A stretch of 37,400 nucleotides of DNA from an uncultured Nitrosomonadales bacterium. Lineage in GTDB: Bacteria > Pseudomonadota > Gammaproteobacteria > Burkholderiales > Gallionellaceae. The notes beneath the pieces are model-generated. The model saw nothing but the letters and a program-made list of their open reading frames with translations. It did no database searches and had not been told where the DNA came from. Below, piece by piece: positions 13,593-16,314 of the stretch; the first letter of the stretch is position 1; each line of letters begins with the position of its first letter. The stretch covers positions 1 through 37,400 of the forward strand of contig CAIOKY010000059.1 in NCBI GenBank assembly GCA_903858965.1. Direction: 5' to 3'. The translations under genes and the position numbers were made by a program.

Positions 13593-14162
13593 TCAAGAAC
13601 GAATCCGCGGATTATCCGACTCAGACAATCGCGATATCCCCGGCAGAAATACTTCCGTGACCAGCAGCGGCACACCGTGCAAATGGAACAACGAGCGGCG
13701 CGCCCATAACTTCGGAGGGGGCTCAATCAATGTCTCAGCAGCACGCCGATACAGCGGGTGTGTGCTGCGCAACGCTTTGTAATGCAGCGGCCTGCGCTCC
13801 ACCAGCGGATGCGAGAACAGCAGGGCACCGAGCGGCTTGTTGCCCAGCCCGCGCACGGACGACCATGCGCCACACAGATGTTCTCGGGCGAGCGCGCTGT
13901 GCGCAAATACTACCGGCTGGTCATCGGCATACAGAAACACCTCTCGCGAGTATGCAAGCTGATGCGGCGCGATACCCAGCAACACGGACTCGTCGAACGC
14001 AATGCGTGCAAAACCACTACGCACACCGCGCACCGAAAAATGTGTGCAACGCTGCTGGATACGCTGCGTAAGCGAGCCGCGATCTCGCAGCCAGGATGCA
14101 AGACCAGCTCCGCAACCCAGTGCGGCTCCATTCCACAGTTCATCAGACATGTAAATAGTCAT
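13593..14162 (-). CDS. ubiC: Chorismate--pyruvate lyase
   Basis: WLRDRGSLTQRIQQRC, REVFLYADDQPVVFAHSA, RGLGNKPLGALLFSHPLVERRPLHY, WARRSLFHLHGVPLLVTEVFLP; overlaps the 3' end of recG. Confidence 0.95.
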   Translation of the reverse strand: MTIYMSDELWNGAALGCGAGLASWLRDRGSLTQRIQQRCTHFSVRGVRSGFARIAFDESVLLGIAPHQLAYSREVFLYADDQPVVFAHSALAREHLCGAWSSVRGLGNKPLGALLFSHPLVERRPLHYKALRSTHPLYRRAAETLIEPPPKLWARRSLFHLHGVPLLVTEVFLPGISRLSESDNPRIRS

Positions 14163-16314
14163 GCCGGTTTGCCATCCAGCGCTGCAAATGTGCCCGTGCC
14201 GCTTCGGGAAAATCGCGCAGCAATTCGTCGGCGGCTTGTCGCGCGAGATTCAATAAGTCTTCATCGGCGCTAATGTCGGCAAAGCGCAACATCGCAACGC
14301 CGCTTTGTCGTGCGCCTAACAATTCGCCGGGGCCGCGCAACAGCAAATCCTGTTGCGCAATGGCAAAGCCGTCGTTGCTTTCGAAAATAATTTTCAGGCG
14401 CGCCCGCGCGAGTTCGGAGAGCGGGCGCTGATACAACAGGATGCACAGGCTTTGCGCCGCGCCGCGCCCAACCCTGCCGCGCAGTTGATGCAACTGTGCC
14501 AGCCCCATGCGCTCGGCATGGTCGATCACCATCAGGCTGGCGTTCGGCACATCCACGCCAACCTCAATAACGGTGGTGGCAACCAGCAATTGCAATTCAT
14601 TGGCCTTGAACGCGGCCATCACGCCTGCTTTCTCGGCGTTATCGAGCTTGCCGTGCACCAAGCCAGTATTTAATTCGGGGAAAGTGGCGCGCAACATTTC
14701 GTACGTCTCTATTGCGGTTTGCAATTGAAGTATTTCCGATTCGTCGATCAGCGGGCACACCCAGTATGCCTGTTGCCCCACCATACAGGCGGCGCGCACC
14801 CGCTCTATCACCTCGTCGCGGCGTTCATCGCTGACCAGCTTGGTGATTACCGGCGTGCGGCCCGGCGGAAGTTCGTCGATGACCGACACATCCAGGTCGG
14901 CGTAATAACTCATCGCCAAAGTTCGGGGGATAGGTGTGGCGCTCATCATCAACTGATGGGGAATGATCCCAGAATCTACTGGGCCATCAATCTGCTTTGT
15001 CGTGTGCTCGCTCGATTCTCGTCTATCTTCGAGATATGCCTCGGCACTCACTGCGCGGCTTCGCGCATCTTGATGTGCTCGTGACGATTCTGGAACCATT
15101 CCCTTGCCTTTACCCTTGTTGCGAAGAGAGAGCCGTTGCTGCACGCCGAACTTGTGCTGTTCATCGACAATTGCCAGGCCGAGTTTATGAAAATTGATCT
15201 GCTGCTGGAACAGCGCATGCGTGCCGATCGCAAGCAGTGTTTCTCCGGATGCGATGTGTTCTGCAGCGAGCTGTTTGTCTTTTTTCTTCAGGCTGCCGGA
15301 CAGCCACGCGGGTTCGATGCCAAGCGGTTCCAGCCAGTCGCGCAGTTTGAGGTAATGCTGCTCGGCGAGTATCTCGGTGGGCGCCATCAGCGCGACCTGA
15401 TAACCGTTTTCAATCGCCTGCAACGCGGCCAGTGCCGCGACTATGGTCTTGCCGCTGCCGACATCACCGAGCAGCAGGCGCTGCATCGGATGAGATTGCG
15501 CAAGGTCACGGCTGATCTCGGCGAAGGTGCGCTGCTGAGCTCTGGTCAGCCTGAACGGCAGTGCTTTTATCAGGCGTGCCGTAAACTTTTCGCGGGCCGC
15601 AAGTTTGGGTGCGATACGTTTGCTGCGTTCGCTGTGATGCAAGCGCATCGACAATTGTTGCGCCAGTAATTCGTCAAATTTGATGCGCCGCCAGGCCGCG
15701 TGGCTGCGTTCTTCCAATGAATCTGCCGACGTCTCCGGAGAAGGGCAATGCAGCAGCCGAATGCTCTCTGCAAAGCCCGCCAGCTTTAATCTTTGCAGCA
15801 GTGCGTCCGGCAATGTTTCGCTCAACGGCAGTGTCTCGAGCGCATTGACGATCAGCTTGCGCAACAGGGGCTGCGCCAACCCCGCGGTGGTCGGATACAC
15901 CGGTGTGAGGCTTTGCTGCAGCGGTGTGTCGTCATCCACTGCGCGGCATTTCGGATGCACCATCTCCAGCGCGTAATGGCCCATACGCACTTCGCCGATC
16001 GCGCGTATCTGTTTGCCGACCGCGAGCTGTTTTTGTTGACTGGGATAAAAATTCAGGAAGCGCAGATACAGCTCTCCGCCATTATCTTCAAGGCGGCACA
16101 CCAACGTGCGGCGTGGACGGAAGGCGACCTCGCTGTGGGTGATGGTGCCTTGAACCTGCACGGTCTCGCCTGCTTGCACGGCGGCGATAGGCGCGAGATG
16201 GGTTTCGTCCTCGTAACGCAACGGCAAATGCAACAGCAGATCGGCGCGATGATGAATGCCCAGCCTGGCGAGTTTGGCCAGCGTGACGGGGGAGATTTTT
16301 GCCGGGGTACTCAA
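14143..16314 (-). CDS. recG: ATP-dependent DNA helicase RecG, carrying an in-frame insertion
   Basis: LLLGDVGSGKTIVAALAAL Walker A, VDEQHKFGVQQRLSLR, MMSATPIPRTLAMSYYADLDVSVIDELPPGRTPV, QLRGRVGRG; 44-aa extra segment between motifs II and III. Confidence 0.97.
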   Translation of the reverse strand: MSTPAKISPVTLAKLARLGIHHRADLLLHLPLRYEDETHLAPIAAVQAGETVQVQGTITHSEVAFRPRRTLVCRLEDNGGELYLRFLNFYPSQQKQLAVGKQIRAIGEVRMGHYALEMVHPKCRAVDDDTPLQQSLTPVYPTTAGLAQPLLRKLIVNALETLPLSETLPDALLQRLKLAGFAESIRLLHCPSPETSADSLEERSHAAWRRIKFDELLAQQLSMRLHHSERSKRIAPKLAAREKFTARLIKALPFRLTRAQQRTFAEISRDLAQSHPMQRLLLGDVGSGKTIVAALAALQAIENGYQVALMAPTEILAEQHYLKLRDWLEPLGIEPAWLSGSLKKKDKQLAAEHIASGETLLAIGTHALFQQQINFHKLGLAIVDEQHKFGVQQRLSLRNKGKGKGMVPESSRAHQDARSRAVSAEAYLEDRRESSEHTTKQIDGPVDSGIIPHQLMMSATPIPRTLAMSYYADLDVSVIDELPPGRTPVITKLVSDERRDEVIERVRAACMVGQQAYWVCPLIDESEILQLQTAIETYEMLRATFPELNTGLVHGKLDNAEKAGVMAAFKANELQLLVATTVIEVGVDVPNASLMVIDHAERMGLAQLHQLRGRVGRGAAQSLCILLYQRPLSELARARLKIIFESNDGFAIAQQDLLLRGPGELLGARQSGVAMLRFADISADEDLLNLARQAADELLRDFPEAARAHLQRWMANRHDYLHV
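14959..15103. repeat. MITE/RPE-like palindrome-ended element inserted in-frame in recG
   Basis: Terminal inverted repeats GGGAATGATCCCAGAATC (14959-14976) and GATTCTGGAACCATTCCC (15086-15103), 16/18 matches; internal hairpins and a direct repeat; encodes ESSRAHQDARSRAVSAEAYLEDRRESSEHTTKQIDGPVDSGIIP. Confidence 0.75.

Follow-up and report, generated by a model that had tools for sequence, protein, structure and literature searches.

A palindromic element of a dispersed repeat family lies in frame within the recG gene of a Gallionellaceae bacterium

Palindromic repeats that become part of proteins were first considered a peculiarity of Rickettsia; cases in Wolbachia followed, as did REPs within scattered genes. 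Rickettsia palindromic elements (RPEs; Ogata et al. 2000), in the accounts given in PMC2229807 and PMC10969869, are 105–146 bp long, form a long stem-loop with terminal inverted repeats, and fall into several families. They occur both between genes and in frame within genes, where an open frame yields a recognizable peptide. The Rickettsia gmk enzyme with an RPE insert is active and has a changed substrate affinity (PMC2229807). REPs, which are 20–40 bp long and linked to RAYT, lie in frame within DNA-repair genes (Di Nocera et al. 2013, PMC3733652), and two Xanthomonas species have different REPs at about one site in recB (PMC3733652). In Wolbachia, palindromic elements lie in frame in addA, addB, and priA, and these recombination genes are mostly left open (PMC4224334). 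ERIC and NEMIS/Correia are intergenic elements of about 100–150 bp that form a long hairpin, are transcribed with genes, and have internal extra segments in some copies (PMC2229807).

In this study, a 145-bp segment with 16/18 matching terminal repeats in recG of an uncultured Gallionellaceae bacterium was analyzed and was found to belong to a dispersed family, named PEgal for convenience. No description of this family was found, and its lineage is new for protein-coding palindromes. By analogy, PEgal works like RPEs; membership in an RPE family is not claimed. PEgal also has intergenic and in-frame copies and an open frame with a recognizable peptide, the in-frame state having been clearly found in one gene only. 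Unlike RPEs as described in those accounts, PEgal occurs in free-living betaproteobacteria, has one clear in-frame copy, and has its usual address before start codons, and here a single loop of a single protein, RecG, gathers several repeat families. The closest precedent for this loop is the recB site of Xanthomonas (PMC3733652), and some of the non-PEgal inserts of RecG, e.g., the GTAGGTCGGGC repeat, look REP-like. PEgal differs from REPs (PMC3733652) in its length and in being abundant in genomes without detectable RAYT. The likeness to the Wolbachia elements is one of description; the lineage is another, and recG is not among the genes reported there (PMC4224334). PEgal shares the general features of ERIC and NEMIS/Correia listed above, while its spacing from the start codon is far more tightly constrained than published accounts report (PMC2229807). 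A search of E. coli genomes with word size 11 gave no match, and kinship with ERIC was rejected.

The window, i.e., the whole 37,400-nucleotide stretch analyzed, is one contig (C59) of a 2.22-Mb genome in 160 contigs (G000). The original prediction of a 44-residue in-frame insert with terminal inverted repeats was confirmed by sequence and translation (Table 1). The peptide, ESSRAH...SGIIP, stands between DEQHKFGVQQRLSLRNKGKGKGMVP and HQLMMSATP, that is, between motif II (DEQH) and motif III (SATP). The frame was kept across the insert, as predicted. RecG normally lacks it: solved RecG 9wm0 reads KGQQQGFHPHQLIMTATP and solved RecG 1gm5 reads NKGK..VMSATP, both without a comparable insert, and the shortest loops among relatives read KG-x-EPHQLMM. 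An Rfam Ysr141 match antisense to recG (15274–15533, plus strand) scored 55.5 bits, below the cut-off of 196, and probably reflects the conserved recG coding sequence.

Table 1. Features of the recG locus in the window
Feature	Position	Strand	Evidence
recG	14143–16314	minus	723-aa ORF with insert in frame; both halves match solved RecG chains
Palindromic element, B-type PEgal copy, 145 bp	14959–15103	minus	covariance model R1 positions 1–145, E = 8e-25; fold z = −5.9
44 extra codons, residues 409–452	14959–15090	minus	translation; absent where the loop of relatives is empty
Outer stem 5' arm, recG sense, GGGAATGGTTCCAGAATC	15086–15103	minus	sequence; paired in predicted fold
Outer stem 3' arm, recG sense, GATTCTGGGATCATTCCC	14959–14976	minus	sequence; paired in predicted fold
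Apex stem TATC/GATA, family-conserved	15024–15036	minus	alignment A1 columns 70–73 with 81–84
Helicase motif II DEQH, residues 384–387, intact	15154–15165	minus	translation

The minimum free energy of the recG segment as RNA was −59.8, compared with −37.3 (sd 3.8) for shuffled sequences; folded as DNA, the segment had z = −4.1. In an alignment of 60 copies, the PEgal consensus was a single long hairpin of 42 pairs. In this alignment, 95.5% of cells were paired, and 26 of the 42 pairs had changes on both sides. The covariation score was 0.389, compared with 0.183 (sd 0.006) for shuffled alignments and 0.045–0.112 for slid partners; kinship among copies inflates the contrast with shuffles, while the slid-partner control preserves kinship, yet the score collapses. 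The inner stem, read directly off the alignment, consisted of short G-C runs alternating with G/A mismatches. Two internal hairpins had been predicted. The TATC/GATA hairpin is the conserved apex (99% of cells paired, one pair changed from U-A to C-G in 17 copies), whereas GCGCG-aagc-CGCGC is no family feature and competes for bases with the long-range pairing that is conserved. The predicted direct repeat is present; it arises because both arms of the B-type subfamily contain similar motifs. Pairing extended 5 bases beyond the conserved CC...GG (83–93% paired) and reached the background level by the 7th base; the outer pairs varied freely in sequence with complementarity kept. The sharp drop in pairing and these variable complementary pairs located the ends of the element. 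Extra segments of about 30–90 bp lay at recurrent positions within the stem of some copies (L075, L078, L080, L113, and L222).

A plain DNA search with the recG segment, carried out before the covariance model was built, found three further copies in the genome, and a search with the consensus found 10 places. The covariance model detected 16 copies, 14 of them at E < 0.001 in a stricter run, and gave the recG copy exactly the limits in Table 1; since the model had been trained on 60 copies that included this one, the score of the recG copy is not independent. That copy was about 20% divergent from the nearest copies in the same genome. Of 41 genomes representing the genus (Gallionella/Sideroxydans/Ferrigenium records), 34 contained PEgal, and the richest had 20 copies; a DNA search of 16 genomes that belong to the order but to different families gave no match. 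The search of the source genome and its relatives, suggested with the original prediction, thus revealed about 15 other copies in the former and wide distribution in the latter. Matches listed for the core pattern in GTDB species genomes were mainly Gallionella-type records (Gallionella, Sideroxydans, and Candidatus Ferrigenium), with a few from Halothiobacillus, Guyparkeria, Pseudomethylobacillus, Methylophilaceae, and Rhodocyclaceae. The prevailing names suggest that the genus is Gallionella-like. The distant matches listed for Halothiobacillus, Guyparkeria, and Pseudomethylobacillus were L077, L079, L096, L109, L113, and L114. Occurrence outside the genus may reflect either an old family or horizontal spread. 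The element had no plasmid match, and no viral contig matched the pattern exactly, which argued against carriage by plasmids or viruses. Rfam covariance models, run on the window and on L002–L004, matched nothing over the element up to E = 1, which argued against a known RNA family.

Two subfamilies were distinguished. A-type copies have the ends CCTCTAGAAATT...AATTTATAGAGG, and B-type copies, including that in recG, start with AAATCGTAGCGAGC and end with GCGCAGTAGATT. Most B-type copies between genes, when translated in the frame used by recG, contained an open core, ARSRAVNDETYLIGRRGLNEHAT..CAVD, whose kinship with the peptide encoded in recG, ARSRAVSAEAYLEDRRESSEHTTKQIDGPVD, was clear. The frame was open over the full length in 3 of 14 intergenic B-type copies; in the rest it was shifted or was interrupted by a stop close to one end. 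In a search for further in-frame copies, the frames across other PEgal copies appeared antisense or spurious, and recG was the only clear case.

RecG was aligned from 53 genomes of the genus. The stretch from KG to HQLMMSATP varied from 3 to 62 codons and had at least 20 codons in 24 RecGs. The inserts, sorted by eye, comprised at least five types of palindromic repeat. PEgal was found in this genome and, with its right half only, in G022. The TTCG..GTCGAAGGGC repeat (VRPEPVEG..VRQAHHERP) was found in 8 RecGs and the GTAGGTCGGGC repeat (VGRASARH..VGLKPDLQ) in 7, each including one remnant; one RecG had both. The SKVKQGGNEPATQ repeat was present in three RecGs, C/T-rich hairpins in two, and another insert in one. 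Nested repeats were observed in four loops (L167, L169, L170, and L164), with TTCGACAGGCTCAG pieces inside the GTAGGTCGGGC repeat. A RecG tree was built with the loop left out, and many of its branches were weakly supported; the insert labels needed 21 changes on this tree, compared with a mean of 22.8 for shuffled labels (22 of 200 shuffles were as low). The closeness of these counts indicated that insert types were scattered, not inherited in blocks. Genome-wide counts covered the VRPEPVEG and SKVKQGG repeats. The VRPEPVEG repeat had 10–53 matches in seven genomes with a recG copy and one weak match in this genome; the SKVKQGG repeat had 7–21 matches in several genomes and matched only itself in G058, the source of the query.

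The contrast between RecG and the rest of the proteome was assessed with two control proteins only. Ppx had one comparable internal insert among 36 genomes (G003), and ThrC had none among the 37 genomes with a match, two of which were incomplete. The insert in the G003 Ppx (C7:3861–5525) was about 60 codons long and located near residue 350. A second insert-prone site of RecG was observed after residue 526 of the window protein, with inserts of 21–36 aa in four genomes of the genus (L176, L179, L190, and L194) and in other families of the order (L235, L239, L247, and L257). A few RecGs of other families were filled at the same two sites, including a VQAEPVEA insert in G109. The RecG loop accepts repeats generally, not PEgal specifically, a point that the original prediction missed, as it did the usual address of the element directly before start codons. 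One loop of a housekeeping enzyme is thus filled by at least five repeat types inside a single genus. Its empty and filled orthologues are natural replicates for studying how selfish DNA becomes protein and at what cost, if any, to function.

Among the 53 relatives, G022 was the only one sharing any of the insert peptide. Its RecG kept the right half with silent and replacement differences, and the left half was missing, so the hairpin was gone. The 44 residues were therefore neither generally conserved among related RecGs nor without other genomic copies, the two circumstances that the original prediction had set against a mobile element. G000 and G022 fell within one supported six-member group on the RecG tree, the other four members of which carry other repeats. 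The simplest reading is one insertion with later loss or replacement; separate insertions in G000 and G022 may instead have occurred. None of the sampled RecGs came from a sister that lacked the element and had a clearly empty site, and the insertion step was not seen directly. Direct repeats of at least 5 nt were found at the ends of 30% of copies, compared with 13% after shuffling, with no fixed boundary. RAYT (Y1_Tnp, PF01797) had no match in the many-copy genomes G000, G022, G056, and G053, which argued against mobilization by RAYT. The predicted likeness to RPEs stood as an analogy. MITE status in the strict sense was not demonstrated: the analysis yielded neither a transposase nor a clear target-site duplication.

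Taken together, the locus is very probably a dispersed non-autonomous palindromic element inserted in the recG loop, persisting through a nearly stop-free frame and a permissive loop. This reading is based on the dispersal of copies in the genome and genus, the covariation of the hairpin, the sharp ends, and the match between the recG peptide and the open core of intergenic B-type copies. It is also based on the variable loop length and the scattered repeat types, several of which are multi-copy in their carriers, on the near absence of such inserts from Ppx and ThrC, and on the precedents of RPEs (PMC2229807) and intragenic REPs (PMC3733652). A copy would have moved into the loop between DEQH and SATP, rather than arising in place, through an activity presumably acting in trans. 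The insert would be tolerated since the element has one frame with almost no stops and since the loop takes long inserts. RecG would still work, with the peptide forming a mostly neutral surface loop, neutral or mildly costly.

A recruited extension of RecG, selected for a role in the protein and with the palindrome as a relic, is improbable. It would agree with the open frame and with the right half of the peptide in G022 outlasting the left hairpin half, but the loop of near relatives is nearly empty or filled with unrelated sequence, and just one relative shares the peptide. Still less likely is retention of the recG hairpin for an action on RNA, such as slower translation or a cleavage site, as perhaps before genes. 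The strong fold of the recG copy, its preserved 18-bp outer stem, and the location of other PEgal copies at ribosome-binding sites are consistent with such a role; the recG copy, however, lies within coding sequence far from the start, the stem was lost in the G022 remnant, and other repeats take its place in relatives. Misjoining of a repeat copy into recG during assembly is very hard to credit. The assembly is fragmented and such repeats terminate contigs, as in two G016 contigs, but the frame is unbroken across the insert, the recG copy diverges from the nearest genomic copies, and the homologous remnant occupies the same place in the independent assembly of G022.

Outside recG, copies in this genome lay at the starts of thrC, cysB, pilU, greA, aroC, apt, and others (names read from the proteins). 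The terminal GG was 5–9 nt from the ATG of a long frame in 40 of 60 copies. In a second set of 40 copies fetched afterwards, which had some genomes in common with the first, an ATG of this kind lay between −2 and +14 nt from an end in 26, compared with 7.5% per end for random nearby positions. This spacing indicated that GAGG of the element occupies the place expected of the Shine-Dalgarno sequence, with the spacer in the outer stem. Outer-stem pairing was 4.6 of 5 pairs near starts and 4.2 far from them (p = 0.09), a weak difference that does not decide whether the complementary ends stem from selection at the RNA level or from the insertion process. We offer only tentatively the wider reading that PEgal might be a mobile cis-acting RNA of a kind not described before, a spreading hairpin that supplies or masks, with its end, the Shine-Dalgarno region at natural spacing from the start codon and gates translation of housekeeping genes (thrC, cysB, pilU, greA, aroC, and apt), the recG copy being an element turned coding in a repeat-trap helicase loop; on balance this is somewhat doubtful. 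The covariation and the tight position before starts make a regulatory role directly testable.

At many genes (L002–L004, L213–L226, and L303–L342), the element end was at the Shine-Dalgarno position in either orientation and the outer stem paired the spacer before the ATG, which is a possible new cis-acting RNA. The G000 thrC copy had TTGAGGT at one end and CCTCAA at the other; the former matched the native TTGAGGT near the thrC start of differently filled relatives (L276, L277, and L289). The space before thrC (L273–L302) held different hairpin repeats by species, and hom and thrC were nearly adjacent in some.
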